Assembly: GCA_946807835.1 (NCBI GenBank)
Contig: OX327702.1
Span: 7,130,001 to 7,194,000, forward strand
DNA from: Ailanthus altissimus
Lineage: Eukaryota > Streptophyta > Magnoliopsida > Sapindales > Simaroubaceae
Direction: 5' to 3'
DNA length: 64,000 nucleotides
Part shown: positions 9,728 through 50,269 of the stretch, one piece after another
Position numbering within the stretch: position 1 is the stretch's first letter
Layout: each line of letters starts with the position of its first letter
Notes under the pieces: generated by a model
Databases searched by the model: none
The model's input: only the letters and a program-made list of their open reading frames with translations
Told to the model about the DNA's origin: nothing
Translations under genes and position numbers: made by a program

Positions 9728-9732
9728 GGGTC
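9728..9732 (+). repeat. Target-site duplication GGGTC, left copy (element 1)
   Basis: GGGTC directly precedes the TGATGAACAC start of the 5' LTR and is repeated at 21681-21685 directly after the 3' LTR. Five-base duplications are standard for LTR-retrotransposon integrase. Confidence 0.95.
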
Positions 9733-11163
9733 TGATGAACACTTAAAATTACACATTTAATAAGAGTTTTACATGATTGTTTTGTATTACTAGTGTATTT
9801 AATTTTCTTAACTTAAGTATGTTTACAATATTGTACTTAATTATCTTTTAACTGATTTATGGTAGGTTCGGTAAAATAGGCATAACTTTCTACTTAAAGA
9901 TCCAATTGAGGTGATTATTGATTCTGTGAAGAGCTGTTTAATGGGATAACATATTGTATTTCACAAAGCATTGGAAATTCGAGTGTTTAAAGGGTGAAAA
10001 TCGCCTAGAACAGAACTGATCTGCATTACAGGCCCAGTTTGAACAGTCATCAGTATTTGGCCCATAACTATAGAAATACATATCTAAAACGTATACGATC
10101 ACTCAATTTGGAAACATAAGAGACTTATCTACAACTTTGATGTTTGGAGTGACAGCTAATTCGGATCACATCAACTCCGAATTGGATAATCAAGTGGGTG
10201 CCCTAGTGATAATGAGTGCAAATTATTTTGCCACCATTCTTGACTTTCATCAACCAAGTGGTTCCCTCCAAATTTGTCTCGATTTTTCCATGTTTTTCTA
10301 TAAATAGGTGGTTTGTTTATGCCTAAAGGATGTAATTAGAAAGTTAGAATTTAGTTCAAAATACTTGTCCTTTGTATCCATTTCTTTGTAAATTTATTTC
10401 TCTTGTTTACTATTAAATCATGTTATTTCTTCTTCCATTTCTTTTCTTTTTCTTTAGTTTTATTATGTCCAAATAATGTTTTTTAAGCTAAGGTGAAAGG
10501 GTGAAGCTCTTGGCAAGGTAATAAGATATGTTTAATATTTATTCATGAATTTAATGCTTCATTTTTAAGTTATGCAAATTTATATATGATGTATTTATTT
10601 TGTTTGTAGAATTAATACCCTTTCTTCTAAAGTGGTGATTCTTGATTTATTATTGACAAACTTAATACTTGGCACAATAAATTCTTAAAACTATTTACAA
10701 GATTTGGTGTATATAATCTTTCTTGTAAAGTGGGAGTCTTGATTTATTGTAGACAAATATAAAGATTGGAATAATAAATACTTGAACCTATTTATAAGAT
10801 TTGGTGTATAATAATTGAAAGAAATAAATACTAATCAATATATAAATAATGATGAACTTTAATTGCTATATTTTTCGGTTGGAACCTCCTTTGTGTGAGG
10901 ATTCCAATTGATTTATAAAAACAAGTCAAATATATTTTTACTTCTTATGCTAAGAGTGAATCCCCCTAACCTTAGCTTTTTATTTGAATTGGTTAATTGA
11001 AATAATATTTGTAAACATCTTATACTGCATTAATTATCTTTAAAGTATTTATAATTTGTAATTTTAATTCTACTTCCTTGTGGATCGACCTCGTTCTCAT
11101 CGGGTTATTTATTGCTTCGACAATCCTACACTTGGAAATAACTCCTATATTCTGGACGTGTCA
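9733..11163 (+). repeat. 5' LTR of element 1
   Basis: It starts TGATGAACACTT, ends GGACGTGTCA and pairs with the copy at 20254-21680. A TATA box lies at 10299-10306. The region from ~10500 to 10900 contains several short near-repeats around 'aagatttggtgtata', also present in the other LTRs. There is no coding sequence. Confidence 0.95.
10299..10306 (+). promoter_or_regulatory. TATA box of the 5' LTR promoter
   Basis: TATAAATA within TTTTTCTATAAATAGGTGG is conserved in all four LTRs of this family (20822, 23773 and 33959 for the others). It is the likely start signal for genomic RNA. The transcription start would lie about 30 bp downstream, by general rule. Confidence 0.75.
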
Positions 11164-11169
11164 AGTTTT

Positions 11170-11186
11170 TGGCGCCGTTGCCGGGG
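11170..11186 (+). other. Primer-binding site, tRNA-Asp type
   Basis: TGGCGCCGTTGCCGGGG begins six bases after the LTR end (GTGTCA). This sequence is characteristic of Athila/Calypso-group gypsy elements, whose minus-strand synthesis is primed by tRNA-Asp. Confidence 0.9.
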
Positions 11187-11240
11187 AGGGAAAATTAATA
11201 TTTTGTTTTGTTGTTGTTTGTTTGTTTATTTTATTTTTAT

Positions 11241-11515
11241 GGAAGGCTAAGCCTCCTAACGTGCTTTACTTTATTTATTATTTGCTTTTTATTTTCGTTA
11301 AATATATTTTCATAGAAGGCTAAGCCTCCTAACTTGGTTTAGTTTATTTATTATTTTTGCCTTTTATTTTCATGGAAGGCTGAGCCTCCTACTCTTTATT
11401 TATTATTCTCTTTTTATTTTCATAGAAGGCCGAGCCTCCTAACGTGCTTTACGTTATTTATTATTCTGTTTTTTTTTTATTTTTGCTTTTTATTTTCATG
11501 GAAGGACGAGCCTCC
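11241..11515 (+). repeat. Five copies of a 16-nt hairpin repeat in the leader
   Basis: The near-palindrome GGAAGGCTAAGCCTCC or variants occurs at 11241, 11314, 11374, 11424 and 11500, each followed by T/A-rich sequence (TTTATTTATT). The arms AGGCT and AGCCT can pair around a single base. Element 2 has only one copy (24697-24712). The position between PBS and gag is where dimerisation or packaging signals would lie, but that role is inference. Confidence 0.85.
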
Positions 11516-11690
11516 TAACGTGCTTTATTTATTATTTTGTTTATTATATAATCTAACATTACTAATCTAACTTCTAATTATTTATCTTTATTTTGCTTTT
11601 TGGTTTTCCTATTTTATTTACTTGTGTTTAATATTTGTTTTTTTCTTATTTGTATTATTTATTGTTATTGTATTGTATTTTATTTCTTTT

Positions 11691-13110
11691 ATGAACGGTT
11701 GGTTTCGAGATCCTAATTCTCATCGTTTGGTGAAAGGTAATTTCAAAACTTCCTTTGATAGTTTGTTAGATTCTCCTTCATCTTCTCATTCTTTACTAAT
11801 TAACACCATGAGCGAAAATCAAATTGAGGGACTCATAGACCCAGGGGACAATCAATCTCAACATAATGAGTATAACCGACCTAGGACACTTAGAGACTAC
11901 ATGAACCCTACACGAACCGGTGCACCATCTTGCTTAATTTTTCCTTCGGATGCAACGCATTTTAATTTTAAGCTAGGCATTATCCAACTTTTACCCACTT
12001 TTCATGGTTTAGATGCAGAGAACCCTTATCTACATCTAAGAGAATTTAAAAAAGTGTGTAACACGTATAATGATCAAAATTGTAGCATGAACACAATTCG
12101 ACTTAAGCTTTTCCCTTTTTCTTTAAAAGATAAAGCTAAAACATGGCTACAAAACCTTACGCCAGGATCCATTTCTTTATGGGATGAGATGCAACAACAA
12201 TTTCTGAAAAAGTTTTTTCCATCCCATAGAATAAATTCTTTCAAAAGACAAATCACCACTTTTGCCCAAAAACGAGGAGAGACCCTTTACCAATGTTAGG
12301 AAAGGTATAAAGAATTACTTAATTTCTGTCCCTATCATGGTTTTGAAACATGGAGAGTAGTATCAAATTTCTATGAGGGCTTAACACCCCAAGTTAGGAA
12401 AATGGTAGAAATGATGTGTAATGGAACATTTGAGGAAAAAGACCCAAAAGAGGCAATGAACTATCTTGACTTACTAGCAGAAAATGCTCAAAATTAGGAC
12501 ACTGCTAGTACCTGTGAGACACCTAGCAAAAATCAAACCACTACATCTAGTGGGGGTATTTATCATCTTAAGGAAGACCATGAACTTCAAGCTAAATTAG
12601 CATCCCTTGTTAGAAAAGTCGAAACCTTAGAAATGAAAAATAGTGGTCAAATAAAATCTGTTCAAGAAATTGTGTGTCACATTTGTGAAACCCATGATCA
12701 CTCTACCAATGATTGCCAAACTTTGCCTGCATTTAGGGAATATCTCCATGAACAAGCCAATGTTCTAAACACATTCAAGCGGTCAAACAATAACCCATAT
12801 TCACAAAACTATAATCCTGGATGGCGAAATCACCCGAATTTTAGTTAGAAGAATGACATTCAAGCATAGGCTTCACAACCACCTTTCCAACCACACCAAA
12901 ACTTTCAAAATCATCAAGGTTATGCACCATATGTCCTACCCCTTAGGAAAAATCTTGGAGAAACCTTTCATACATTCATTGAAAAACAAGAGTCTGTTAA
13001 TTCTCAAAATGCTTAAACATTTGCTGATTTGAAAGATACTCTTGCTAAATTTGCATCTGCACTGAACATTCATGAGAAAGGAAAATTTCCTTCTTAACCA
13101 TAGCCAAACC
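11691..13110 (+). pseudogene. gag: Element 1 gag (capsid and zinc knuckle), with in-frame stops
   Basis: The frame starts MNGWFRDPNS at 11691, although MSENQIEGL at 11808 is an alternative start. A retrotransposon gag domain follows, with LKLFPFSLKDKAKTWLQNL and then FLKKFFPSHR. A complete CX2CX4HX4C knuckle (CHICETHDHSTNDC) lies near 12680-12720. The product would form the virus-like particle and bind RNA. One reading frame is kept throughout, interrupted only by stops, including 12297, 12495, 12846 and 12867. Those at 12495, 12846 and 12867 sit at exactly the same codons in element 2, and all three look like TGG changed to TAG. No start codon context argues strongly for either ATG. Confidence 0.85.
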
Positions 13111-13157
13111 CCAAAGGACAACATAACTCAAATGCATGTAGTTCAGGAAGTCAACAC

Positions 13158-14030: not shown

Positions 14031-14141
14031 AAAGGGAGTTCTACCGATCCCTTAGAAATATGTTTAATAAATTCATTTGAGTCAAATATACAACTAGATC
14101 ATGAAATCTCTGATATATGTTCTTTACTTGATTGTGCACAA

Positions 14142-15680
14142 GTGATTGAAAATAAAGGATGGAAACTAAAGTTTGAAGAATTGGGAGAAAATAAGGATAA
14201 ACAGAATGAAATCTCAAAGTTGGAGTTAAAACCTTTGCCTGAAGGACTGAAATATGCATTTCTTAGAGAGAAACAAACTTACCCGGTGGTAATCTCTTCT
14301 ACACTCACAAGTGAACAAGAATATAAGTTGATTGAATTATTAAAAATGCATAAAAATGCAATTGGGTGGACTTTAAAAGACATAAATGGTATTAATCCTC
14401 TGATTTTCATACATAGAATACGCTTAAAGGATAATGCCAAAACTTCCCAACAATCTTCAAGGAGATTAAATCCACATATGAAAGAGGTAGTGAGAGCTGA
14501 AGTTATCAAATTACTTAAAGTATGAATCATCTATCCTATCTTAGATAGTAAGTGGGTAAGTGCTACTCAGGTAGTACCAAAACAATCTGGAATCACAATC
14601 ATTGAAAATGAAAAAGGTGAGTTAATACCAACTCGAGTCTCATCTAGTTGGAGGATGTGCATAGATTATAGAAAGTTGAACTCGGCCACTAGAAAAGACC
14701 ATTTTCCTTTACCATTCCTTGATCAAATTATAGAAAGAGTAGCAGGACATCCCTACTATTGCTTTCTAGATGGTTACTCTGGCTATTATCAAATTCCCAT
14801 AGCACTAGAGGACCAAGAAAAGACTACATTCACATGCCCTTTTGGAACCTTTGCTTTTAGAAGAATGCCCTTTGGACTTTGTAATGCCCCAGCAACATTT
14901 CAGGGATGTATGTTAAGCATTTTTAATGACATGATTGAGCATTATTTAGAAGTTTTCATGGATGATTTAACTATGTTTGGAAATTATTTTGATAATTGTC
15001 TTGAAAACTTAGAAAAGGTTTTAAAAAGATGTGAAGAAAAAAGTCTTGTATTGAATTAAAAAAAATGTCACTACATGGTTACTTCTGGAATTGTTTTAGG
15101 ATTTCGATCCATTTTAGGAATTGAAGTGGATAAGGCAAAAGTCGAACTCATTACACATTTGCCTCTACAAAAAACAATCAGAGAAGTTCGATCCATTTTA
15201 GGACATGCTGAATTTTATAGGAGGTTCATAAAAACCTTTAGTGCTATATCTAAACCTCTTAGCAAAAGATGTATCATTTAAGTGGATTCAAGAGTGTCAA
15301 AATTCATTTAAAAAATTAATTGACCTCTTAACATCTGCTCCTATCATACAATCTCCTGACTGGTCTTTACCTTTTGAGCTCATGTGTGATGCTAGTGACT
15401 ACGCTGTTGGTGCTATATTGGGACAAAGAAAGGAAGGCAAATCCTATGTAATTTATTACGCAAGTAGAACTTTAAACAATGCACAAATGAATTACACAAC
15501 AACTGAAAAAGAACTACTTGCTATAATATTTACATTAGACAAATTTCGTTCTTACTTAATTGGTTCTTCAACTGTTGTATTTACTGACTATGCTGCTGTA
15601 AGGTACTTAATGTCAAAATAGGATGCAAAACCAAGGCTGATTTGATGGATTCTATTGCTTTAAGAATTTATTATCACTAT
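14142..15680 (+). pseudogene. Element 1 reverse transcriptase and RNase H
   Basis: RT runs from ~14142 to 15270: WRMCIDYRKLNSAT, the FLDGYSGYYQI fingers/palm segment, then FRRMPFGLCNAPATFQ and the catalytic box FMDD at ~14958. RNase H follows with LMCDASDYAVGAILGQ (~15382) and TTEKELLAIIF (~15500). The frame is kept from gag to ~15270. There an 11-bp deletion, judged against element 2 (28450-28465), shifts it. The catalytic aspartates of RT are intact here, unlike element 2. Additional stops at 14523, 15057 and 15619 would end translation. Confidence 0.9.
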
Positions 15681-15689
15681 AAAGGATAA

Positions 15690-17109
15690 GTAGGGAGCTG
15701 AGAATGTAGTTGCAGATCACTTATCAAGACTCACACCAGATTCATCAACAGAAATAACACCTATTAATGATTCTTTTCTAGATGAATTTTTATTTTCTAC
15801 TGTTACAATTCTTTGGTATGCTAATATTGTTAATTTTCTTGTAACAGGAGAAATGCCACCTCAACGGAATGCTCAAGATAAAAGAAAATTTTTAACTGAG
15901 GTGAGAAAGTTTTATTGGGATGATCCTTATCTCTTCAAATATTGTCGTGATCAAATATTTCAAAGATGCATACCCGATAATGAGGTAAGTAAAATTATTG
16001 AATTTTGTCATTCTAAAGCATGTGGGGGACATTTCTCATCAAAGAAAACAGCTGCAAAAATCTTGTAGTGTGGATTTTATTGGCCTACTTTATTTAAAGA
16101 TACATATGCATTTTGTATAACTTGTGAAAATTGTCAAAAGTTGGGATCAATTTCAAAACGAAACATGATGCCTTTAAACCCCATTCTTGTTATTAAAATC
16201 TTTGATTGTTGGGGGATAGATTTCATGGGACCATTTCTGTTATCATTTGGATTTACGTATATCTTAGTTGCAGTAGATTATATCTCAAAATGGATTGAGG
16301 CTATTCCATATTGAAATAATGACCATAAAACAGTCATGAAAATTTTGAAAGAAAATATCTTAAGTCGATTTGGAATCCCTCGAGCCATTATAAGTGATGG
16401 GGGTAAGCATTTTTGTAATAGACCATTTGAAACATTAGTAAAAAATTATGGTATTACTCATAAATTTTCCACCCCTTATCATCCTCAGACAAGTGGATAA
16501 GTTGAATTAGCAAATAGGGAGATAAAACAAATTTTAGAAAAAAACTGTAAACCCAAATCGCAAAGATTGGTCTTTAAGACTAAATGATGCACTGTGGGCT
16601 TATAGAACTGCTTTTAAAACTTCATTGGGTATGTCTCCCTATAGGATAGTTTATAGAAAACCTTGTCACTTACCTGTGGAACTTGAGCATAAAGCCTACT
16701 GGGCTATTAAAACTTTCAATGAAAATCTTGATTCTGCTGGACACATACGTAAATTACAAATAAATGAACTTGAAGAATTGAGAAATGATGCATATGAGAA
16801 TTCAAAAATTCATAAAGCTAAAATTAAAGCCTTTCATGATAAAAAAATCAGAGAAAAACATTTAACACTGGTCAGAAGGTTTTGCTTTATAATTCTTAAC
16901 TTCACATATTCCCTGGAAAATTAAGATCAAGATGGAGTAGCCATTTTATTGTGAAACATGTGTACCCTTATGGAACAATTGACATTGAAAATCCTAGAAA
17001 TGGGAATGTGTTTAAAGTAAATGGGCAAAGACTCAAGCCGTTTCTAGAAAACCAAGCTTTTCATGAAGAATTTACGTCCCTGTCGAATCCTTGTTATGAG
17101 ACCAATTAA
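15690..17109 (+). pseudogene. Element 1 integrase
   Basis: The zinc-binding N-terminus (FCHSKACGGHFSSKKT, then CITCENCQ, an H2C2 finger) spans ~16000-16140. The core has aspartates in CWGIDFMGPF (~16210) and IISDGGKHF (~16390) and the glutamate in VELANREI (~16503), a D,D35E pattern. The C-terminal part (GMSPYRIVY, then [10 protein letters not shown]) runs on to ~17109. It inserts the cDNA copy into the genome. Several stops and at least two frame changes, near 16550 and 16870, make it nonfunctional. Confidence 0.85.
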
Positions 17110-17317
17110 TCTTTGTTTTATATATTTACATATTTATATATATTTATTCTTCTTCTAATATTTTTTTTTTTACTTGCAGGTTAATTTAGTAGTTTTGTTA
17201 AAGTTTTATTTTGCACTCCGGTTAAGTGGCAGATAACGGTCCGTGATATTTCAAATCGGTTTTGTCAGTTTCCCATAATTACTGATATCTTCTCTTCTTC
17301 CCTCTTTTCTAAAAAAA

Positions 17318-17866
17318 ATGGATGACATTTTAAAAAATTTGAAAAAGCGTTTTCCCTCATTGCCTCAAAATTCCTTGAAGAAAATTTACTAAGTAAGATG
17401 TGAAAGATTAAGGTTATTAATGATTATAAATATACCTGTTGATTTACGTTGGTTAATTGAAGCCAAAGTTAGATTGACAGGTGAATTTTTAGACTCATTA
17501 ATTTCCTACATGCCTGGCTTAGGTAAAAGCTCTTTTTCAAAAAAACGAAGAGCAAAACGATTAAATGTTTGTTACAAGTGTGCATGCACGACTTGCAACA
17601 CACGTTGCCATACTTTAAGAATGGTGTCTGTAAATCGCGAAGATAAAATTAGGTTCATTAAGGATGGCCTGAGTAAGGAGTCTTTAGATAATATCTTATC
17701 GACTCTTGAGACGCATCCTAGTGGATATGTGCACATTGTAATTCTTGAATTATGGGACATATTCCTAAAAGAACATGAGTGGTACAGTCTCGGGAATCTG
17801 ACTTTAAAAGACCTTATTTACCAATTTATAAGAAAATTGAATGGGAAGCCTATCCCCGACCCATAG
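17318..17866 (+). CDS. Novel ORF after integrase: basic, cysteine-bearing 182-codon protein
   Basis: It starts at MDDILKNLKK, just after a run of eight A. Apart from one stop at codon 25 (17390, TAA where element 2 has CAA) the frame is open for 182 codons. Visible features: a basic patch KKRRAKR (residues 75-81) directly before a cysteine cluster C85-x2-C88-x4-C93-x3-C97-H98 (plus C90 in this copy), a C-terminal half rich in Leu/Ile, no signal peptide and no membrane segment. Element 2 keeps the same four cysteines and basic patch (30530-31070). I do not recognise the family. The arrangement suggests a small zinc- or nucleic-acid-binding protein, and in layout only recalls cysteine-rich nucleic-acid-binding proteins of some plant RNA viruses. 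It occupies the place where some Athila relatives have an env-like ORF, but has no env features. Confidence 0.7.
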
Positions 17867-18223
17867 AGGGCGTTTAAGCCGTTACTAGACGTAAAACCAG
17901 AGGAAGATGTCAGCCACAATCACAACTACTTGTATATATTTACTATAGCTGTTATTTTTAAATGTTTCATTTCAAACTCAAACGTCTTTTCAATAATCAA
18001 CCACCTATAATCCTTTTTGAAAATTTTACATTTTAAGCCGACAACCCATGTGACTTTTCCAGCTAACAAATTGAAAATTGGTAAAAGGTGTTGAATCTTG
18101 TATTTCAAGCCAATAGCCATGTGATTTAACTTTGTAATACCTTTTGGCTCTATAAATACATTGCATTATTTCTGCATCTTTGTACAAACTCAAAATCATT
18201 TAAGAGAAAGGGTGAGTGTAATC
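17867..18223 (+). promoter_or_regulatory. Intergenic stretch before LOG with direct repeat and TATA box
   Basis: This 357 bp region separates the novel ORF from the LOG gene. It contains an imperfect direct repeat (CCATGTGACTT at ~18047 and CCATGTGATTT at ~18117) and a clean TATAAATA at 18151-18158. The LOG ATG follows the TATA box by about 70 bp, a normal plant core-promoter spacing. Element 2 has only one copy of the repeat and a damaged TATA (CTAAAAATA near 31285). Confidence 0.6.
18151..18158 (+). promoter_or_regulatory. TATA box upstream of the LOG cargo gene
   Basis: GGCTCTATAAATACATTG matches the plant TATA consensus and stands 66-73 bp before the LOG ATG at 18224. It suggests the cargo could be transcribed independently of the LTR. 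Function is inferred, not shown. Confidence 0.55.
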
Positions 18224-18877
18224 ATGGAAGGATCATCAACTCGTAAATTCACAAAAATTTGTGTCTTTTGTGGATCCAGCCCTGGAAACACTAGTGAGTT
18301 TATAGAAGCAGCAGAAACCCTTGGTAAGATGTTAACTGAGCGAAATATTCATTTAGTATATGGGAGAGATAGTCTTGGATTAATGGGACGTGTGGCAACC
18401 GCTGCACAAAATAATGGCAGTCGAGTTTTGGGTATCATACCAAAAGCTCTAGCTGTTGGAGATATTGTAGGAAAAATAATTGGGGATGAGTTACAGGTAT
18501 CATCAATGGATGAACGAATGTCTTTTATGCTTCGTAATACTGATGCCTTCATAGCTCTACCTGGAGGTTTCAGAACATTGGAGGAAATTTTTCAAATTGT
18601 CTCATGGGCACAATTGTAAATCCATAAAAAACCAATTGGTTTGTTAAATATTGATAGTTTTTATAATGGGTTGTTATCTTTTCTTGACTATGCGGTGGAA
18701 AAACAATTCGTCTCATCTGCAGCACGACAGATCCTCATTTCTGCTTCAACTATTGATCAGTTACTCGATGAACTACAAACTTTTACACCTCTATTTGATC
18801 CAACAATGAGTCAGATAGATTGGTATACTGATAATAGTGAAAAGAAACGCAAGATAGATTTGACGCTTCATCTGTAG
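18224..18877 (+). pseudogene. LOG-like: Retrotransposon-borne LONELY GUY (LOG)-type cytokinin-activating gene, one internal stop
   Basis: The frame encodes a full-length LOG-family protein (217 codons plus stop, the family's normal size). LOG enzymes release free cytokinin bases from riboside 5'-monophosphates in the cytosol. Visible motifs: MEGSS..FTKICVFCGSSPG at the N-terminus (FCGSSPG residues 15-21), LVYGRDSLGLMG (44-55; the usual GGGS is RDS here), GIIPKAL, SMDERM with the catalytic Arg at 98, and LPGGFRTLEE (112-121), which keeps the catalytic Glu121 but has Arg in place of the second motif Gly at 117. A TAA at codon 132 (18617) interrupts IVSWAQL, and the frame then continues unchanged with KPIGLLNIDSFYN to the natural end. 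There are no introns, unlike plant LOG genes, so it derives from spliced RNA. Element 2 has the same gene at 31358-32011. Confidence 0.93.
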
Positions 18878-20240
18878 CCTATCTATTTCTATGTATTTTT
18901 AAGCTTTTTGTGTGGCTTGTTTTATTTTGTTGCAGGTTTAATTTTTAATAAAAGATGTTTCAGGTGATATATTCTATACTTTACTCTTTCTATATTTTGA
19001 CATTGAGGACAATGTCTCAATTTGGTTGGGGGGAAGATAGTTGATATTATTGTTATCACCTTGTTTACTAAAAAAAAAATTATTATTATTATGAATGGCG
19101 TGAGTAAAATGTTCATTTATGTATTCTTGCGATGCATTCTAGCTCTAGAATGGCAGAGTAAAGAGTACATTATAAACTTTTGAAACACATTCTAATTGGT
19201 TTATTTTTAATGTATTTTATGTTTGTTGCTTAAGTTCTTAGTAACTCTTGCGTAAGTAAATTTGCTTTGCTATCGATATATGATTTCAAAATTGTTTAGT
19301 TTAAATCACTTTTTCTATCTAGGTTACTAAAGAATAACTTCTGAAATTATTTCTTGAGAACAATACTAAGCCTTGTGGTAAGATAGATGATTCAATATAT
19401 ATAGCCAAAAGAATTTTCATGTTTAAGTATACATATTATTTTCTAAACTCACATATCTTTTTTGAGTGAGTGGAGAGGTCTGAGATAACAGCTTACGAAC
19501 TTTCATTGATCTTTTGAAATGGTTAATTTTTGTTTGGAATGACATTATTTGGGATGAGGAATGATTTGGTTGCTTAGCTGAAGGATAAAAAACAAATTGG
19601 AAAAGTATTATGGTGATAAATTACTCTTATTTTGTAATGATTCCTTATGTCTTTCAAAAAAGAAAAAAAAATGAGTAAAAAAAATAATAAAAAATAAAAA
19701 AAATATAAAAAAAAAGAAAGAAAAGAAGTCAATTCAGTTCAATAAAGTCTTCATTCAATTTTAGAAGACTAAAGTCATTAGGAAGCAATCTTATCGCCGA
19801 ACTCTATATTCGTAAGATTCGCATTAAATAATTAAAGTCTTGAAGCTAGCATTTGGCAATAATGGTTTGACTCTAAATATTTGATTTTCCTATCTTTGGA
19901 TCAATGTTAGTTTTTCTATCTGTCCTTAAATGTAACTTTTTCTTGAGCGATTATCTGCTTTTCAACTCCATGAGTGAAATCCTAAGCCATTAAACAAGTT
20001 ATTCACCTGTAAGGATATAGAGTTGAGGCTTTTACTTGGAAAATTTTTAAGGCTATATATGTTGTGGTTTGTGGTAAGAAGGCTTTGGCTTAATTCACAC
20101 ACACATAAAAATTTTTTTGGAAGTTATTATTGAAATAACCTTTATAGCGATTGTGATCTTGAACTGGCGTTTTGTTTGAAATACTTAGGTAGTGTTCAAA
20201 TTTTATTTATGCTTGAATTGCTAGGGACTAGCAATAAGCC
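18878..20240 (+). other. 3' noncoding region of element 1
   Basis: About 1.36 kb without genes. It contains TTGAGGACAATGTCTCAA followed by TTTGGTTGGGGGGA (~19003-19035), a motif pair that recurs in the 3' region of Athila-type elements and is also present in element 2 (~32136-32168). The G-run could be an internal polypurine tract. An A-rich low-complexity stretch lies at 19658-19728. Confidence 0.7.
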
Positions 20241-20253
20241 AGTTGGGGGGGTG
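20241..20253 (+). other. Polypurine tract of element 1
   Basis: AGTTGGGGGGGTG directly abuts the start of the 3' LTR, the expected position for plus-strand priming. The element 2 equivalent reads AGTTGGAGAGTG. Confidence 0.85.
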
Positions 20254-21680
20254 TGATGAACACTTGCAATTACACATTTAATAAGAGTTTTACATGATTG
20301 TTTTGTATTACTAGTGTATTTAATTTCCTTAACTTAAGTATGTTTACAATATTGTACTTAATTATCTTTTAACTGATTTATAGTAGGTTCGGTAAAATGG
20401 GCATAACTTTCTACTTAAAGATCCAATTGAGGTGATTATTAATCCTATGAAGATCTGATTTAATGGGCTAACATATTGTATTTCACAAAGCATTGGAAAT
20501 TCGAGTGTTTAGAGGGTGAAAATTGGCCTAGAACAGAATTGATCTGCAGTACAGGCCCAGTTTGAACAGTCATCAGTATTTGGCCCATAACTATAGAAAT
20601 ATGTATCTAATACGTATTCGATCACTCAATTTGGAAACATAAGAGACTTATCTACAACTTTGATGTTTGGAGTGACAGCTAATTCGGATCACATCAACTC
20701 CGAATTGGATAATCAAGTGGGTGCCCTAGTGATAATGAATGCAAATTATTTTGTCACCATTCTTGACTTTCATCAACCAAGTGGTTCCCTCCAAATTTGT
20801 CTCGATTTTTCCATGTTTTTCTATAAATAGGTGGCTTGTTTATGCCTAAAGGATGTAATTAGAAAGTTAGAATTTAGTTCAAAATACTTGTCCTTTGTAT
20901 CCATTTCTTTGTAAATTTATTTCTCTTGTTTACTATTAAATCATGTTATTTCTTCTTCCATTTCTTTTCTTTTTCTTTAGTTTTATTATGTCCAAATAAT
21001 TTTTTTTTAAGCTAAGGTGAAAGGGTGAAGCTCTTGGCAAGGTAATAAGATATGTTTAATATTTATTCATGAATTTAATGCTTCATTTTTAAGTTATGCA
21101 AATTTATATATGATGTATTTATTTTGTTTGTAGAATTAATACCCTTTCTTCTAAAGTGGTGATTCTTGATTTATTATTGACAAACTTAATACTTGGCACA
21201 ATAAATTCTTGAAACCATTTACAAGATTTGGTGTATATAACCTTTCTTGTAAAGTGAGAGTCTTGATTTATTGTAGACAAATATAAAGATTGGCATAATA
21301 AATACTTGAACCAATTTATAAGATTTGGTGTATAATAATTGAAAGAAATAATCAATATATAAAAGATGATGAACTTTAATTGCTATATTTTTCGGTTGGA
21401 ACCTCCTTTGTGTGAGGATTCCAATTGAGTTATAAAAAAAAGTTAAATATATTCTTACTTCTTACGCCAAGAGTGAATCCCCATAACCTTAACTTTTTAT
21501 TTGAATTGGTTAATTGAAATAATATTTGTAAACATCTTATACTGTATTAATTATTTTTAAAGTATTTATAATTTGTAATTTTAATTCTACTTCCTTGTAG
21601 ATCGACCCCATTCTCATCGGGTTATTTATTGCTTCGACAATCCTACACTTAGGAATAACTCCTATATTCTGGACGTGTCA
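20254..21680 (+). repeat. 3' LTR of element 1
   Basis: Nearly identical to 9733-11163, with the same start (TGATGAACACTT), TATA box (20822-20829) and end (GGACGTGTCA). It is followed by the GGGTC target duplication. Confidence 0.95.
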
Positions 21681-21685
21681 GGGTC
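21681..21685 (+). repeat. Target-site duplication GGGTC, right copy (element 1)
   Basis: An exact repeat of 9728-9732. The disrupted gypsy gag resumes immediately after it. Confidence 0.95.
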
Positions 21686-23207: not shown

Positions 23208-24639
23208 TGATGAACACTTGCAATTAAATATTTAATAAGGTTTTTATATCATTATTTTGTATTACTAGTGCCTTTAATGCCCCCCAACTTAAGCATGTTT
23301 ACAAGATTGTACATAATTAGCTTTTAACTATTTCATGGTAGGTTTGGTAAAATGGGCATAAATTTCTACTTAAGAATCCAATTGGAGTTATACTTGATCC
23401 TATAAAGAGTGAATTCAATGAGCTAATATATTGTATTTCATAAGGCATTTGAAATTCGAGCGTTTAGAGGGTGAAAATAGCCTATAACAGAACTAATCTG
23501 CAGTACAGCTCAATCCGAACAGTCATTGGTATTTGGCCCATAACAATAGAAATATGTATCTAATACGTATATGACAACTCAATTTACAAAGTTAAGAGAC
23601 TTATCTACAACTTTGATGTTTCTGATGATAACTAATTCAGATCACATAAATTTCAAATTGGACAATCAACTGGGTACATTAATGATAATCATTAAAATTT
23701 TTTACCCCCTTTCTTGACTTTTATCATCTAAGTGGTTCCCTCCTCACTTGTCTAGATTTATCCATGTTGTTCTATAAATAGGTGGCTTGTTTATGCCTAA
23801 AACATGTAAATAGAGAGCTAGATTTTAGTTTAAAACAATTGTCTTTTGTATTATTTCTTTGTAATATTATTTTTCTTGTTTACTATTCTAAAGTCATGTT
23901 ATCTCTTCTTCAATTTCTTTTCTTTTTCTTTAGTTTTATTATGTTCAAGTAATTTTTTTTATGCTAAGGTAAAAGGGTAAACTTTTTGGAAAATTAACAA
24001 GATATACTTAACTCTTATTCATAAATTTAATGTTTCATTCTTAAGTTATGCAAATTTATATATAATATATTTATTTTGTTTGTAATATTAATACCCTTTC
24101 TTCTAAAGTGGTGTATCTTGATTTATTATAGACAATTTTTATAGTTGATACAATAAATTCTTGAAACCATTTACAAGGATTTGGTGTAGATACATTTTCT
24201 TGTAAAGTGGGAGTCTTAATTTGTTGTAGACAAATATAAATTGACATAATAAATACTTGAACCCATTTATAAGATTTGGCGTATAATAAATGAAATAAAT
24301 AAATACTATTTAATATATAAATGGTGATGAACTTTAATTGTTTTATTTTCTGATTGGAACCTCCTTCGTGTGAAGATTCCAATTGAGTTATAAAAAGAGT
24401 TGAATATATTCTTCTTCATATGTCAATAGTGGATCCACCCTAACCTTAGCTTTTATTGTAATTGGTTAATTGAATTAATATTTTCAAACATCTTTATACT
24501 GCATTAATTGTCTTTAAAAGTATTTATAGTTTATAATTTTAACTCCACTGTCCTGTCGATCAACCCCGTTCTCATCAGGTTATTTATTACTTCGATAATT
24601 CTACACTTGGGAATAAACTTCTATATTCTGGACGTGTCA
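23208..24639 (+). repeat. 5' LTR of element 2
   Basis: Starts TGATGAACACTT and ends GGACGTGTCA, with a TATA box at 23773-23780. It pairs with 33397-34815 and is clearly homologous to the LTRs of element 1. Confidence 0.93.
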
Positions 24640-24645
24640 AGTTTT

Positions 24646-24662
24646 TGGCGTCGTTGCCGGGG
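24646..24662 (+). other. Primer-binding site of element 2
   Basis: TGGCGTCGTTGCCGGGG, one transition (C to T) away from the PBS of element 1. The same tRNA-Asp type is inferred. Confidence 0.85.
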
Positions 24663-24901
24663 AAGTGAAATTAATATTTTTGTGTGTTATTTTCATGGAA
24701 GGCTAAGCATCCTACTCTTTATTTATTAACTATTTATTATATAATCTAACATTAACTGATCTAACATTACTAATCTAATTATTTATCCTTATTTATTTTA
24801 ATTTTAGTTTTGCCTATTTTATTTGCATGTGTTTAATATTTTAATTTTTTTCTCTTATATGTATTATTTATTATTATTGTATTTTATTTTATTTCTTTAT
24901 G

Positions 24902-26340
24902 TGAGTGGTTGGTTTCGAGATCCTAATTCTCATAGTTTGGTGAAAGGTAATTTCAGAACTTCCTTTGATAATTTGTTAGATTCTCCTTTATCTTCTCATT
25001 CTTCGTCAATTAACACAATGACCAAAAATCAAATTGAGAGACTCATAGACCCAGGGGACAATCAGTCCCAATATAATGACCATAACCGACTTAGGACACT
25101 TAGAGACTACATGAACCCTAGACGAACCGGTACACCATCTTATTTAGTTTTTCCTCTGGATCTAACACATTTTAATTTTAAGCCAGGCATTATCCAACTT
25201 TTATCCAGTTTTCATGACTTAGATGTAGAGAATCCTTATCTACATCTAAGAGAATGTGAAGAAGTGTGTAACACGTATAATGACTAAAATTGTAGCATAA
25301 ACACAATTCGGTTTAAGCTTTTCCCTTTTTCTTTAAAAGATAAAACTAAAACATAGCTAAAACACCTTAGGTCAGGATCCATTTCTTTATGGGATGAGAT
25401 GCAACAACAATTCCTGAAAAAACAATTTCCTTCTTATAGGACAAATTCTTTCAAAAAACAAATTATCATTTTTGCCTAAAAATTAGGAGACACCCACCAA
25501 TATTGGGAAAGGTATAAAGAATTACTTAATACATGTCCCCATTATGGTTTTGAAACATGGAGATTAGTCTCAAATTTCTATGAGGGCTTAACACCTTAAG
25601 TTAGGCAAATGGTAGAAATGATGTGTAATGAAACATTTGAGGACAAAGACCCAGAAAAGGCAATGAACTATCTAGACTTACTAGTAGAAAATACTCAAAA
25701 TTAGGACACTGCTGGTATATGTGAGGCACCTAACAAAAATTAAACCACTATATCTAGTTGGGGTATTTATCATCTTAGAGAAGACCATGACCTTCAAGCC
25801 AAATTAGGATCCCTAGCTAGAAAAATAGAAATCTTAGAAATAAAAAAGAGTAGTAAATTAAAATCTGTTTAAGAAATTGTGTGTCACATTTGTGAAACCC
25901 ATGATCACTCTACCAATGATTGCCCAAATTTGCTTGCATTTAGGGAACGTCTCTATGAACAAGCCAATGTTCTAAACATGTTTAAGCGGTAAAAAAATAA
26001 CCTATATTCACAAAACTACAATCCTGGATGAAGAAATCACCTGAATTTTAGTTAGAGTAATGACATTCAAGCATAGGCTTCACAATCACCTTTCCAATCA
26101 TACCAAAATTTTCAAAACCATCAAGGTTATGCACCATATGTTTCACCTCTTAAGAAAAATCTAGAAGAAACTTTGAATGCATTCATTGAAAAGCAAGATT
26201 CTATTAATTCTCAAAATGTTCAAACATTTGCTAATTTGAAAGATACTCTTACTAAATTTGCATCCACACTGAACATTCATGAGAAAGGAAAATTTCCTTC
26301 TCAACCACAACTAAACCCCAAAGGATAACATAACTTAAAT
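24902..26340 (+). pseudogene. gag: Element 2 gag
   Basis: Homologous to the element 1 gag from GWFRDPNSHSLVKG onward, with the same zinc knuckle (CHICETHDHSTNDC near 25888-25929). Stops are numerous. Three of them, at 25702, 26053 and 26074, fall at the same codons as in element 1, while others (for example 25285) are private. Confidence 0.85.
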
Positions 26341-26553
26341 GCATATAGTTTAAAAAGCCAACACATTGATCAAGTTAAAGCGGTTATCACTCTTCGAAAT
26401 GGTAAAATTATTGAAAAACACATTCCTGAAACTTATGAGAACGATGAATCAATCTCTAAGGGTAATGAAAGCATTAAACCTACACCTAATGAAGAAAACA
26501 CCAAACCCTCACCTTCACCCCTATTTCCTTATGCATTAAGTAATACTAAAAAG

Positions 26554-27230
26554 ATGAATCGCAATCTTAAAAATTTTAAAATCTTCAAACAGGTAAACTT
26601 TAATAGTACTTTATTGGATGCTATTAAACAGGTTCCCCCTTATGCAAAATTTTTGATGAATTTATGCATAGTAAAAAGAAAACTGAATGTGAAAAAGAAA
26701 GCATTTTTAGCTGAACAAGTAAGTGCCATTCTTCAGAATAATAATGCTTTGAAATATAAAGGCCCTGGTTATCCTACAATTTCATGTATTATTGAAAGTT
26801 ATAAAATTGAACAAGCCTTACTTGATCTTGGTGCCAGTGTGAATTTACTGCCGTATTCAGTTTATCAGTAGCTCAATTTCGGTGAGTTAAAATTAACTTT
26901 TGTAACTCTTTTGCTTGCCGATAGATCAATAAAAGTACTAAGAGGGACAATGAAAGATATTTTAGTTCAAGTTGATAAATTCATATATCTTGTGAATTTT
27001 ATTGTCTTAGACACAGAACTTGTTAAAGGATGTAATCTGATACCTGTTATTTTGGGTCGTCCATTTTTAGCAACTTCTAACGCTTTGATTAATTGCAAGA
27101 ATGGGGTAATGAAGTTTTCATTTGGAAACATGACACTTGAGCTTAACGTTTTCAATATGTGTAAGTAACCATATGAGGAGGGGAATAAAAGTGAAGAAGC
27201 TAACATGATTAAAATGATTGTGGATGATCA
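26554..27230 (+). pseudogene. Element 2 aspartic protease region
   Basis: QALLDLGASVNLLPYSVYQ near 26813-26869 preserves the retropepsin motif, followed by VILGRPFLATSNALI (~27046). A one-base deletion near 27250 relative to element 1 shifts the frame before RT. Confidence 0.8.
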
Positions 27231-27347
27231 TATTCAAAACGGGAGTTCTACGATCCCTTAGAAATGTGTTTAATGAATTTATTTGAGTCAAATACACAAT
27301 TAGATCCTGAAATCTTTAACATATGTTCTTTACTTGATTGTGTGTAG

Positions 27348-28975
27348 GTGAATGAAAATAAAGGATTAAAACCAAAGTTTGAAGAATTAGGAGAAAATGA
27401 GGATAAACAGAATAAAATTTTAAAGTTGGAGTTGAAACCTCTACTTGAAGGATTGAAATATGCATTTCTTAGAGAGAAACAAGCTTACTTAGTGGTAATC
27501 TCTTCTACACTCACAATCAAACAAGAAGGTAAGTTAATTGAATTATTGAAAATGCATAAAAATGCAATTGGGTGGACTTTAAAAGACATTAATATTTTGA
27601 TTTGCACACATAGAATACACCTAGAGGATAATTCCAAAACTTCCCAACAACCTTAAAGGAGATTAAATACATATATGAAAGAGGTAGTGAGAGCTGAAGT
27701 TCTCAAATTACTTGAAGTAGGAATCATCTATCCTATCTCAGATAGTAAGTGGGTAAGTCATAACCAAGTAGTACCAAAATAATCTGGAATCACAGTCATT
27801 GAAAATAAAAAAGGTGAGTTAATACCAACTCGAGTTTCATCTAGTTGGAGGATGTGCATAGATTATAGAAAGTTGAACTCGGCTACTAGAAAAATCCATT
27901 TTCCTTTACCATTCCTTGACCAAATTTTAGAAAGAGTAGCGGGACATCTCTACTATTACTTTCTAGATGGTTATTCTAGTTATTATCAAATTCTTATAGC
28001 ACTAGAGGACCAAGAAAAAATTACATTCACATGCACTTTTGGGGTCTTTGCTCTTAGAAGAATGCACTTTGGACTTTCTAATGCCCTAGCAATATTTCAG
28101 AGATGTATGTTAAGCATTTTTAGTGACATGGTTGAGCATTATTTAGAATTTTTCATGGATAATTTAACTGTGTTTGGAAATTCTTTTGATAATTGTCTTG
28201 AAAACTTAGAAAATGTCTTAAAACAATGTGAAGAAAAGAGTCTTGTGTTGAATTGGGAAAAATGTCATTACATGGTTACTTTTAAAATTATTTTGGGCTA
28301 TGTAGTGTCTTCTAAAGGAATTGAAGTGGATAAGGCAAAAGTTAAACTCATTACACATTTGCCTCTACCAAAAACAGTTAGAGAAGTCCGATCCTTTTTA
28401 GGACATGCTAGATTTTATAAGAGGTTTATAAAAAAATTTAGTGTTATATCTAAATCTCTTTGTAACCTCTTAACAAAAGATGTATCATTTAAGTGTACTC
28501 AAGAGTGTCAAAATTTGTTTGAAAAATTAATTGACCTCTTAACATTTGCTCCTATCATGCAATCTCCTGACTGGTATTTACCTTTTGAGCTTATGTGTGA
28601 TGCTAGTGACTACGCTGTTGGTACTGTATTGGGACAAAGAAATAAAGGTAAATCCTATATAAATTATTATGCAAGTAGAACTTTAAACAGTAAACAAATG
28701 AATTACACAACAACTGAAAAAGAACTACTTGTTGTAATATTTGCATTAGACAAATTTTGTTCTTACTTAATTGGTTCTTCAACTGTTGTGTTTACTGACT
28801 ATGCTGCTATAAGGTACTTAATGTCAAAACAGGATGCAAAACCAAGATTGACTTGATGGATTCTATTGCTTCAAGATTTTAATATCACTATCAAGGATAA
28901 GAAGGGAGCTGAGAATGTTATTACAGATCACTTATCAAGAATCGCACCAGATTCATCAATAGAAATAACACCTAT
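27348..28975 (+). pseudogene. Element 2 reverse transcriptase and RNase H, active site mutated
   Basis: A 334-codon open stretch (27852-28856) covers most of RT and RNase H: CIDYRKLNSATRK, FLDGYSSYYQI, LRRMHFGLSNALAIFQ, then the active site reads FMDN, with the second catalytic Asp replaced by Asn (~28155-28166). RNase H LMCDASDYAVGTVLGQ is recognisable at ~28591. The connection domain lacks the 11-bp deletion seen in element 1. The Asp-to-Asn change alone would abolish polymerase activity. Confidence 0.88.
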
Positions 28976-28989
28976 TAATGATTCTTTTC

Positions 28990-30319
28990 CCGATGACTTT
29001 TTATTTTCTACTGTTACAATGCTTTGGTATGCAAATATTGTTAATTTTCTTATAACAGGAGAAATGGCAAATCAATGGAATGCTCAAGACAAAAAGAAAA
29101 TTTTAATTGAGGTAAGAAAGTTTTATTGGGATGATCTTTATCTCTTCAAATATTGTTCTGACAAAATATTTTGAAGATGTATACCCGACAATGAAGTAAG
29201 TAGAGTTGCTGAATTTTGTCATTCTGAAACATGTGAGGGACATTTCTCATCAAATAAAACAACTGCAAAAATCTTGCAGTGTAAATTTTATTGGCCAACT
29301 TTATTTAAAGATACATATGCATTTTGTACAACGTGTGAAAATTGTCAAAAATTGGGATCTATTTCAAAATGAAACATGATGCCTTTGAACTCCATTCTTG
29401 TTATTGAAATCTTTGATTGTTGGGGTATAGATTTCATATGACCATTTTTGCTATCATTTGGATTTATATATATCTTAGTCGTAGTAGATTATGTCTCAAA
29501 ATGGATTGGGGCTATTCCATGTCGAAATAATGATCATAAAACAGTCATGAAATATTTAGAAGAAAATATCTTAAGTCGATTTGGAATCCCTTGAGCTATT
29601 ATAAGTGATGGGGCAAGCATTTTTGTAATAGGCTATTTGAAACATTAATGAAAAAATATGGTATTACTCATAAAGTTACCACCGCTTATCATCCTTAGAT
29701 AAGTGGACAAGTTGAATTAGCAAATAAAGAGATAAAATAAATTTTAGAAAAACATTATAAACCCAAATCGCAAAGATTAGTCTTTAAGACTTAATGATTC
29801 ACTGTGTGCTTATAGAACTCCCTTTAAAACTTCATTGGGTATGTCTCTTTATAGAATGGTTTATGGGAAACCTTGTCACTTACCTATGGAACGTGAGCAT
29901 AAAGTCTACTGGGCCATTAAAACTTTCAATGCAAATCTTTATTCTACTGGACAGATACGTAAATTACAAATAAATGAACTTGAAGAATTGAGAAATGATA
30001 CATATGAGAATTCAAAATTTCATAAAGCTAAAATCAAAGCTTTTCATAATCAAAAAATTCAAAAAAAAATATTTGATGTTAATCATAAGGTTTTGCTTTA
30101 TAATTCTCAACTTTACATATCCCTGGAAAATTAAGATCAAGATGGAATGACCATTTTATTGTGAAACATGTATACCCTTATGTAACAATTGACATTGAGA
30201 ATTCTAGAAATGGTAATGTGTTTAAGGTAAATGGGTAAAGACTCGAGTTGTTTATAGAAAACGAAACTTTTTATGAAGAATTTGTGCCCCTATCTAACCC
30301 TTGGTACGAGACCAATTAA
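28990..30319 (+). pseudogene. Element 2 integrase
   Basis: It contains the zinc finger (FCHSETCEGHFSSNKT, then CTTCENCQ; ~29215-29350), the core with GIDF (~29425) and a D in IISDG (~29600), and the C-terminal segment GMSLYRMVYGKPCHLP (29835 on). It is broken by stops and frameshifts and corresponds in extent to element 1 15690-17109. Confidence 0.8.
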
Positions 30320-30529
30320 TTTTTGTTTTACATATCTACATATTTCTATATATATTTATTCTTCTTCTAACTTTATATTTTTTTTGTAGGATAATTTAGT
30401 ATTTTTGTTAAAATTTTGTTTTTCACCCCGGTTAAGTGGCGGATAACAGTACTCCGTGATATTTCAAGTCGGTTTTTTCAGTTTTTCATAATTGCTGATA
30501 CCTTCTCTTATTCCCCATTTCTAAAAATA

Positions 30530-31070
30530 ATGGATGACATTCTAAAGAATTTGAAAAAGCATTTTCCCCGATTGCCTCAAAATGCCTTAAAGAAAATTTA
30601 CCAAGTAAGATGTGAAAAATTAAGGTTATTAATGATGAATATACCTGTTGATATACATTGGTTAATTGAAGCCAAAGTTCGATTAACAGGTGAACTTTCA
30701 GACTCATTAATTTCTTATATACCTGGCTTAGGTAAAAGCTCTTTTGTAAAAAAGCGAAGAGCAAAAAGATTAAGCATTTGTTACAAGTGTGCACGCATGA
30801 CTTGCAACACATATTGCCACATTTTAGGAATGGTGTCTATAAATTGCGAATTTAAAATTAGGTTAATTAAGGATGGCTTGAGTAAGAAGTCTTTAGATGA
30901 TATTTTATCGACTCTTGAGATACATCTTAGTGGATATCATTGCAATTTGTGAATTATGGGACATATTCCTAAAAGAACATGAGCGGTACAGTCTCAAGAA
31001 TCTGACTTTAAAAGACCATGTTTGCTAATTTATAAGAAAATTGGATGGAAAGCCTATTCCCAATCCGTAG
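30530..31070 (+). pseudogene. Element 2 copy of the novel cysteine-bearing ORF
   Basis: It starts MDDILKNLKKHFPRLP and is open for 140 codons, to 30952, where an indel near 30935 shifts the frame. The homologous sequence continues to a stop at 31068-31070. The basic KKRRAKR patch and the C-x2-C-x4-C-x3-C-H cluster (CYKCARMTCNTYCH) are identical in spacing to element 1, and codon 25 is Gln here where element 1 has a stop. Retention of these residues while much else has changed is consistent with past selection on the protein. Confidence 0.7.
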
Positions 31071-31357
31071 AGGGCGTTTAAGCCGTTACTAGACGTAAAA
31101 TTAGAGGAAGATGTCAGCCACAATCACAACTACTAGTACATATTTACTATAGCTATTATTTTTAAATGTTTCATTTGAAACTCAAACGTCTTTTTCAACA
31201 ACCAATTACCTATAATTGATTTTGAAAATTTTGCATTTAAAGCCAACAACCCATGTGACTTAACTTTACAACACCTTTTTACTCTAAAAATACATTGCAT
31301 TATTTCTACAACTTCATATAAAGTCAAAATCATTCAAGAAATAGAGTGAGTGTAATA

Positions 31358-32011
31358 ATGGAAGGAACATCAACTTATAAATTCACAAAACAATATCTAT
31401 TTTGTGGATCTAGCCCTAAAAAAGCTAGAGAGTTTGTAGAAGCAGTAAAAACCCTTGGTAAGGTATTAGTTGAACAAAAAATTCATTTAGTATATGGGGG
31501 AGGTACTCATGGATTAATGGGAATTGTAGCAATAGCTGCACAAAATAAAAGTAGTCAAGTTTTGAGTATCATACTGAAAGCTTTAGTTGTTAGAAATATT
31601 GTAGGAAAAATAATTGGAGATGAGTTACATCTATCATCAATGCATAAGTGAATATCTCTTATGCTTCAGAATGCTGATGCCTTCATAGCTCTACCTAGAG
31701 GTTTCGAAACATTGCAGAAATTTTTTTAAATTGTCTCATGGGCATAATTACAAATCCATCAAAAACCTTTTGGTTTGTTAAATGTTGATGGTTTTTACAA
31801 TGAGTTGTTATCTTTTATTGACTATGCGGTAGAAAAATAGTTCGTTTCATCGGCAGTATGACAGATTGTTAATTTTGCTTCAACTATTGATTAGTTACTT
31901 GATGAACTACAAGCTTTTACACCTTTATATGATCCAACAATGCGTCAAATAGATTAATATATTAATGACAGTGAAAAGAAATGCAAGATAGATTTGATGC
32001 TTAGTCTATAG
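31358..32011 (+). pseudogene. LOG-like: LOG-type gene in element 2, several stops
   Basis: It is exactly 654 bp, as in element 1, with no net indel and no intron. It keeps LVYGGGTHGLMG, the nucleotide-binding glycine motif that element 1 has lost, but the PGGxGTxxE motif is damaged (LPRGFETLQKF; the catalytic Glu is Lys). The catalytic Arg codon at position 98 is TGA, where element 1 has CGA, a C-to-T change. Further stops follow. The 3' half ([24 protein letters not shown]) is plainly LOG. The two copies complement each other in which motifs survive, so the common ancestor carried an intact LOG. Confidence 0.9.
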
Positions 32012-33380
32012 CCTATCTACTTTTATGTAATTTTAAAAATTTTGTGTGGCTTGTTTTATTTTGTTGCAGGTTTTATTTTCAATAAAAGATATTTCAGGTG
32101 ATATCTTCTATACTCTATTATTTCTATATTTTGACATTGAGGACAATGTCTCAATCTGGTTGGAGGGAGGATAGTTGATATATAATGTTAGTGTTAATTT
32201 TTTTTTTGTTATCACTTTGTTCTTTAAAACAAAATTCATGAATGGCGTGAATAAAAAGTTTATTTATGCAATCTTAAGAGGTATTCTTGTTCTAGAATGA
32301 CAAAGTAAAGAGTATATTACTGAACTTTTGAAACACATTCTAATTGGTTTATTTTTAATGCATTTTTTTGTATATTTGTTTGTTGCTTAAGTTTTTGGTA
32401 ACTCTTGCATAAAGATTACTAAAGAATTATTTAGTTTAAATCATTTTTTCTATCTAGGTTACTAAAGAATAACTTTCAAAATTATTTCTTGAGCACAATA
32501 CTAAGTCTTGTGGTAAGATGTATGATTCAATATATATAACTAAGAGAATTTCCATGTTTAAGTATACATATTCTTTTCAAAACTCGAATATCCTTTGTGT
32601 GTGAATGAAGAGGTTTAAGATAACAACTTACGAACTTTCATTGATCTTTTGAAATGGTTAATTGTTGTTTAGAATGATATTATTTGGGATGAGTAATGAA
32701 TTGGTTGTTTAGCTGAAGGATGATAAAAAAGGGTATGGTGAGAAACTGTTCTTATTTTGTAATGCTTCCTTATATCTTAAACAAAACACACAAAAAAGAG
32801 CAAAAAAAAGTATATATAAAAAAAGAAAAAAAGTCAATTCAGTTCAATAAAGTCTTCATTCAATTCTAGAGGACAAAAGTCATTAGGAAGCAATTTTATC
32901 ACCGAACTCTTTATTCGTAACATTCACATAAAATAATTGAAGTCCTCAAGCGAGCATGTGGAAAGAATAGTTTGACTCTAAATAATTAATTTTTTGACTC
33001 TAAATAATTGATTTTCCTATCTTTGGATCAATGTTAGTTTGTCTATTTGTCCTTAAATGTAACATTTTCTTGAACAATTATCTATTTTCTAACTTCATGA
33101 GTGAAATTCTAACCCGTTAAATAGTTATTTACCTGTAAGGATATGGAGTGAGGCTTTACTTGGAGAAAATTTTGAAGGCTATATATATTGTGGTTTGTGT
33201 TAAGAAGGCTTTAGCTTAATTCATACATACATACACACACATACACACACACACATAAATTTGGAAGTTATGATTGAAATAACCTTAATAACAATTGTGA
33301 TCTTAAACAGACATTTTGTTTGAAATACTTAGGCAGTGTTCAAATTTTATTTATGCTTAAACTGCTAGAGACTAGCAATA
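32012..33380 (+). other. 3' noncoding region of element 2
   Basis: Homologous to 18878-20240. It includes the TTGAGGACAATGTCTCAA motif (~32136), an A-rich low-complexity stretch (~32780-32835) and a CA-dinucleotide microsatellite (33225-33256). No genes. Confidence 0.75.
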
Positions 33381-33396
33381 AGCTAGTTGGAGAGTG

Positions 33397-39450: not shown

Positions 39451-39752
39451 CGAGTTGATTGTATTTATTGTTCACAACTATTTTTTGTCTAATAACAAAA
39501 GGTGTTATTTTTTATGTTTAGCACAAAATATTTCAAGAAGATTTCCAATTCACAAATTCTATTATTGAATTAATGTTTTACGAGAAATGTGAGAGATCCT
39601 ATAAAAAAAAATTATTAAATAAATAAACAAACGTGAGGGTTTAACACACATTTGTATATATATAAAAATTTGAACAAGATATCATAGCTAAAATATTAAC
39701 TTTTTTTCAAGTGAAATATTACACTTAAAAAAGAGAATATATATCAAAAAGT

Positions 39753-50209: not shown

Positions 50210-50269
50210 CTAATCACAATTATTTTCCAAGATAGATGTCCAAAAAAAAAATATGGAAAAATTTATCTG

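Follow-up and report, generated by a model that had tools for sequence, protein, structure and literature searches.

Does a plant retrotransposon carry a gene through which it could act on the hormone state of its host? Host LONELY GUY (LOG) enzymes activate the growth hormone cytokinin, and a first-pass annotation of a 64,000-nucleotide stretch of Ailanthus altissimus DNA (the window) had described a full-length, intronless LOG gene inside an Athila-type LTR element. The frame lies within element 1 (9733-21680), a Ty3/gypsy element with LTRs that are 96.1% identical (K2P 0.032). The surroundings are as annotated, with LOG placed 3' of the integrase and 5' of the 3' LTR, and with an LTR-bounded element that has TG...CA ends and GGGTC on both sides. 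The primer binding site is presumably of the tRNA-Asp type. LTR dating uses substitution rates of 1.3e-8 and 6.5e-9, and under these two assumed rates the element is 1.2-2.5 million years old. The second, older element in the window has a LOG frame that is more decayed than that of element 1. The features are collected in the table.

Features of element 1 and element 2 in the window (positions in the window)
Feature	Position	Strand	Evidence or remark
Target site duplication GGGTC, left	9728..9732	.	
5' LTR, element 1, TG...CA	9733..11163	+	K2P vs 3' LTR 0.032
Primer binding site TGGCGCCGTTGCCGGGGA	11170..11187	+	sequence
gag fragment	11622..12299	+	Retrotrans_gag E 7e-12
Reverse transcriptase fragment	14655..15059	+	RVT_1 E 3.3e-21
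RNase H fragment	15241..15621	+	RT_RNaseH_2 E 4.1e-34
Integrase C-terminal part	16625..16924	+	resembles end of matching frame in copy L015
NABP-like second cargo frame, open part	17420..17866	+	Viral_NABP E 7.6e-8
TATA-LOG cassette	18148..19024	+	sole window stretch found matching non-autonomous family b
TATA box TATAAATA	18151..18158	+	73 bases upstream of LOG ATG
LOG-family phosphoribohydrolase frame, intronless	18224..18877	+	in-frame stop at 18617-18619
Polypurine tract before 3' LTR	20243..20253	+	sequence; assigned by position
3' LTR, element 1	20254..21680	+	
Target site duplication GGGTC, right	21681..21685	.	
Element 2, older, same kind	23208..34815	+	duplication CTTAG; LTR K2P 0.129
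Decayed LOG frame, element 2	31358..32011	+	

The element lineage appears to be Athila-like by domain content and order. Extra frames lie 3' of pol, and Pfam searches of the open pol of family c (one of three families, a, b and c, described below) found RT, RNase H, Integrase_H2C2 and rve only, with neither an archaeal second RNase H nor a chromodomain. The order PR-RT-RH-INT was found in a family c copy, where the protease match was slightly below the cut-off. The integrase C-terminal part in the window had no Pfam match of its own; the matching frame in copy L015 shares 75% identity with the integrase section of the pol of family c, in which rve was found. An in-frame stop stands between protease and reverse transcriptase, as TGA in the window element (14028-14030) and as TAG in the family c copy L072, and may be a read-through signal or decay.

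The description of the gene as a full-length, intronless LOG was right in extent, 217 residues, and in the lack of introns, but not in coding capacity, as the window copy is interrupted by one in-frame stop. Over its open part, this copy matches Pfam Lysine_decarbox (E 1.7e-18) and Arabidopsis LOG3 (PDB 2a33, E 2.8e-36), and its PGGxGT motif is altered, with Gly118 lost. To find other copies, we searched the genome (939 Mb in 37 contigs) with a degenerate DNA pattern for G[DE]ELQVSSMHER as the element-LOG signature. This returned 2,950 matches with at most two mismatches (1,420 + 1,530), a number of pattern matches and not of intact genes, compared to 0 for the reversed control. A host-LOG DNA pattern returned 11 matches and its control 0. 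The first 100 signature places (contigs C1 and C2, 0 mismatches) were assigned by their letters to family b (64), family a (22) and family c (14), and in a sample of 20 copies drawn from these places, all on C1, the LOG frame was free of stops and frameshifts in 8. Copies without stops, which the annotation had proposed to look for, are common. In sets picked by similarity, and biased accordingly, such frames were present in 12 of 29 loci sampled through the second cargo gene (the window copy included), 2 of the 7 best DNA matches and 24 of 30 loci found with a host-LOG protein fragment. What that fragment brought up, among 150 scored of 3,818 candidates, were copies of the element type at 53-56% identity, and the host LOG genes were obtained by the DNA pattern instead. 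A genome search with P0006 gave mostly stop-free places among the 150 scored of 6,264 candidates.

Family a is that of the window element. In the family c copy L072, the gag-PR, RT-RH-INT, NABP and LOG frames are open, apart from the stop between PR and RT, and its LTRs are 99.5% identical over 796 bases. Family b is of a different make. One copy read from end to end has LTRs of ~2,716 bases that are 99.08% identical (K2P 0.009) and the duplication GCCAG, so that a tandem array and a pararetrovirus, both considered for this family, were ruled out by LTR ends and target duplication. Gag-pol is absent from that copy, and the open frames of the family are LOG and an orphan frame of 408 residues, taken from another family b copy (L079:116-1339). 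The orphan frame had one relative in the protein search, and its C-terminal 230 residues matched neither Pfam nor PDB. Amplification of these elements has been recent. LOG copies also occur in tandem pairs, many of them with a spacing of 6.3-6.7 kb in family b or ~10.8 kb in family c, for example C30:19953110 and 19959824, and C3:33583065 and 33593891; they look as if the elements shared an LTR.

A second cargo frame and a TATA box were added to the earlier annotation. The second frame in full (17318-17866) contains one stop in the window and resembles carlavirus nucleic acid-binding type (NABP) proteins. It scored 33 bits against Viral_NABP (PF05515; cut-off 23) and 19.5 bits, just under the cut-off of 20.9, against Carla_C4. 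Among 50 aligned relatives, 45 matched PF05515 and 39 matched PF01623 at E <=0.001, and 44 had the motif CX2CX4CX3C. When six relatives were scored singly, P0236 fell below both cut-offs and P0124 passed that of Carla_C4 only. An AlphaFold2 model built on 50 sequences was poor (pLDDT 57, pTM 0.27), and the viral match is therefore a Pfam match. As in the carlavirus proteins (PF05515, PF01623), this match spans a basic and a cysteine-rich part; in contrast to them, the protein is encoded by an LTR retrotransposon and has 182 residues, with extra N- and C-terminal parts beyond the match. No relatives were confirmed among viral contigs. Holders named among 120 of 462 matches were Xanthoceras, Acer, Populus and Rhamnella.

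In this genome, 140 of the best 150 of 4,555 candidate NABP places had no stop over the query, and a LOG match lay downstream in 29 of the 30 NABP loci that were cut out, one being without LOG. In outside databases, two pairs of a LOG and an NABP protein had contigs of equal length (P0008 and P0139, 8,723; P0052 and P0130, 4,511), which suggests that the members of each pair may share a contig. For 30 of 30 family b loci, the matches listed included none to NABP, with ~1.3 kb upstream covered. The cargo of this plant LTR lineage is genuine and conserved and comprises more than one gene. According to PMC12172455, carlavirus proteins of the NABP type suppress RNA silencing, and one of them is a transcription factor that induces hyperplasia.

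The TATA box TATAAATA was present in 73 of the 74 copies that had 110 bases upstream, and its distance to the LOG ATG is nearly fixed within each family: 73 bases in family a (37/37), 68 in family b (32/33, the other 67) and 60 in family c (3/4). Between families a and c, the central part of the spacer can hardly be aligned, yet 13 bases, CTCTATAAATACA, are identical; when the spacer was shuffled base by base, a shared stretch of this length arose anywhere in only 2 of 300 shuffles. An exact 37-base match between families a and c begins 31 bases past the NABP stop. LOG is presumably transcribed separately from this box. Among the matches listed, the homology of family b to the window extends only from the TATA box to ~150 bases past LOG. 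The TATA-LOG cassette is thus also found in an otherwise unrelated, non-autonomous LTR family.

The annotation had set a trait of the lineage against a chance local capture, in which the LOG frames would group with nearby host genes, and had proposed a phylogeny with host LOGs. We built a LOG tree from 101 rows: 87 relatives of at least 195 residues from 120 of 1,332 matches, three family representatives, two window frames, six host genes and three rows from the PDB search. In a careful tree of 83 rows, from which 18 long, partial or near-identical rows were omitted, 68 element LOG rows formed one clade (support 100/98) and 14 host rows formed another (96/87). The element label required a single change on this tree and in 100% of 200 bootstrap trees. 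The tree indicates that the sampled element LOGs arose once, in keeping with a lineage trait and not with local capture. Element context was checked for families a, b and c, and the other rows are labelled by their position in the tree. The names on the element side come from rosids (Populus, Reevesia, Diplodiscus, Xanthoceras, Parasponia, Melia) and asterids (Paulownia, Rehmannia); Orobanche was represented only in the quick tree. The six LOG genes that belong to the host genome itself grouped with other host LOGs. As their exons stand apart, the element LOG probably descends from a spliced copy. One gene model from Melia azedarach, P0116, has a gag-like N-terminus, GWYRDPHSHRLVKG, as in the window gag, fused to an element LOG; the fusion may hint at splicing or may be a prediction error.

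Residues were counted by alignment to AtLOG3, with numbering and roles from the Corynebacterium enzyme as given in PMC4979012. The catalytic residues were kept in nearly all element rows (Arg99 73/78, Glu122 77/78), as were Gly118 (76/78), Glu121 (74/78) and Trp129 (76/78), while Met96 was kept in 55 and His97 in 34 of 78. PGGxGTxxE, Arg99 and Glu122 are all kept in the representatives of families a, b and c. Compared to the plant enzymes LOG3 and LOG8 (PDB 2a33, 1ydh), with which the element LOG has PGGxGTxxE and the catalytic Arg and Glu in common, it is intronless and has Lys100 and Glu125 replaced. Position 100 was Ile, Met or Leu in 75 of 78 element rows and Lys in 2; at position 125, Gln, His or Thr stood in 74 rows and Glu in a single one. 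Among host rows, Lys100 was present in 16/16 and Glu125 in 14/16, the other two being unclear at exon joins. In the same source, Lys100 and Glu125 line the adenine/prenyl pocket of the solved LOG, and alanine changes at AMP-binding residues of a bacterial LOG, except Ser19, nearly abolished activity. Four basal rows on the element side outside the 78 (P0044, P0060, P0079 and P0080) retain both Lys and Glu, which would place the change after the capture if these rows are element-borne. Collectively, the element LOG is likely to be catalytic, with an altered substrate pocket.

To determine if the LOG frames have been under constraint, as the annotation had proposed, we compared dN/dS between families. 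The ratios were 0.29-0.32 for a-b and 0.23-0.25 for b-c (three methods) and 0.11-0.135 for a-c (two methods), the last being rough since synonymous divergence there is near saturation (dS 1.7-1.9). Purifying selection has thus acted on LOG between the families. For NABP, the a-c ratio was 0.13-0.23, and its dN (0.155-0.176) was similar to that of the integrase (0.14-0.18), which was compared by dN because its dS is saturated. Within families, variants present in at least two copies were counted as shared, and copies with larger indels or below 94% identity were dropped. Nonsynonymous to synonymous (N/S) ratios of shared variants were 0.22 of expectation in family b (34 copies; 14 to 24; p 3e-6), 0.21 in family c (7 copies, only 5 variants) and 1.03 in family a (36 copies; 34 to 9), while singletons within families gave 0.70-0.80. 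Since a LOG fragment had served to select 30 of the family b loci, the test was redone without residues 55-118 and gave the same ratio (10 to 17, 0.22, p 1e-4); five family b copies not picked by similarity gave 3 to 4 (0.36, p 0.23, not significant). No selection was detected among the shared variants of family a, and we therefore see no recent constraint there; a subgroup of this family with a frameshifted LOG has multiplied. The proposed check thus reveals constraint between families and within family b, but a family a that looks neutral.

What could such a cargo do for the element? We propose that an Athila-like LTR lineage carries an intronless LOG with its own conserved TATA box, adjoining a carlavirus-like NABP gene. 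The predicted reaction of the LOG protein is cleavage of nucleotide monophosphates, which would likely free active cytokinin and favour the division of cells in which the element replicates. The substrate would be a cytokinin nucleotide; since nearly all element rows have other residues in place of Lys100 and Glu125, this identity is uncertain and the side-chain preference is possibly shifted. The viral-like protein may suppress silencing or alter host transcription, as carlavirus proteins do, and the gain of the element would be extra cell division in the meristem or germline. That the element influences host cell growth via LOG is plausible, and we give the proposal as a whole an even chance of being correct. 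More tentatively, and at rather less than an even chance, the cargo may be a transferable growth cassette: a LOG captured once, with its own promoter and a reshaped pocket, that acts beside a suppressor or transcription factor derived from an RNA virus and was of enough value to be taken up by elements lacking gag-pol, which became its most numerous carriers. If true, plants would have their own parallel to the retroviruses with growth genes.

The altered pocket could also mean that the element LOG has kept its phosphoribohydrolase activity on nucleotides but has moved away from cytokinin to another nucleotide, for example of AMP/GMP type or with a modified base. It might then serve to supply nucleotides, to turn over RNA or to evade a host signal. 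In favour of this reading, three of the five residues that PMC4979012 assigns to the prenyl pocket are changed (His97, Lys100, Glu125) while Arg99 and Glu122 stay; however, Met96, Trp129 and Glu121 of the same site are largely retained, and the change from Lys to Ile, Met or Leu could merely make the side-chain pocket more hydrophobic. We regard this reading as less likely than not. The same pocket changes would suit a protein with a non-enzymatic or regulatory function, one that binds nucleotides or the host LOG and acts as a decoy or as a partner in dimers, but such a protein would not require the catalytic pair that nearly all rows keep, and we consider this quite improbable. The cytokinin proposal must also be weighed against a LOG that was captured once and now merely hitchhikes, with open frames that reflect recent bursts. 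The young LTRs of family b, the neutral-looking variation within family a and the multiplication of copies with a frameshifted LOG are all consistent with such a passenger, whereas between-family dN/dS well below 1, selection in family b, catalytic residues conserved across the clade and the cassette in a second LTR family argue against it and leave it improbable, if a shade less so than the decoy. A separate capture of a host LOG gene in each plant is scarcely credible: no supporting point was found, and it is contradicted for the sampled rows both by the single label change and by the position of the six host LOGs, with their separate exons, among other host genes.

The annotation knew of no described element of this kind. 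This does not hold, as a LOG-type (YgdH) domain had already been reported in Gypsy elements of Citrus and Populus: for two Citrus species, the available text of PMC9289625 describes consensus elements with a YgdH domain, which otherwise occurs in LONELY GUY, and it adds P. trichocarpa when no filter is applied, citing Steinbauerova 2011. Those elements likewise combine a LOG-type domain with Ty3/gypsy, and Populus LOG rows fall in our element clade. That text gives the presence of the domain only, to which our analysis adds the viral-like partner, the promoter, the active-site analysis, the single-origin tree and the non-autonomous carriers. Among titles and the beginnings of abstracts, and in passages of PMC7264820, PMC6317226, PMC11593424 and PMC11728184, we found no publication that reports, for LTR elements of plants, a viral-type NABP, an internal promoter or the transfer of a cassette; subscription literature was thinly covered, and we therefore make no claim of priority.

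Athila and Calypso elements with env-like 3' frames have the same order, gag-PR-RT-RH-INT followed by extra frames before the 3' LTR, but the extra frames here match viral NABP and LOG and not a transmembrane or Athila ORF-1 protein. Another parallel is the Phalaenopsis Gypsy lineage with a functional m6A demethylase, also described in PMC9289625. In both cases a plant Gypsy lineage has captured an enzyme, retained it and spread it in many copies; the Phalaenopsis case concerns one enzyme in one genus, whereas the element LOG has its own TATA box and relatives named from several plant orders. The function of extra frames in plant LTR elements was called 'rather speculative' in PMC6317226, and the two frames described here have clear family matches and signs of selection, with a LOG reaction that is known and can be assayed. 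This allows any action of plant retrotransposons on the hormone state or silencing of their hosts to be tested directly. At 182 (NABP) and 215-217 (LOG) codons, both frames are below the 250-codon threshold of the survey in PMC6317226, which a stop-to-stop frame in family c (253) would just pass. For annotation, gene models of Populus, Rehmannia, Parasponia and Melia named 'cytokinin riboside phosphoribohydrolase' sit in the element clade and call for caution.

Other repeats were observed elsewhere in the window. An inverted pair (3354-6127 and 42420-45196) is 88% alike, and a tandem array lies at 38299-39229. A direct pair (39481-41251 and 48573-50274), 82-90% alike, may be the LTRs of another element.
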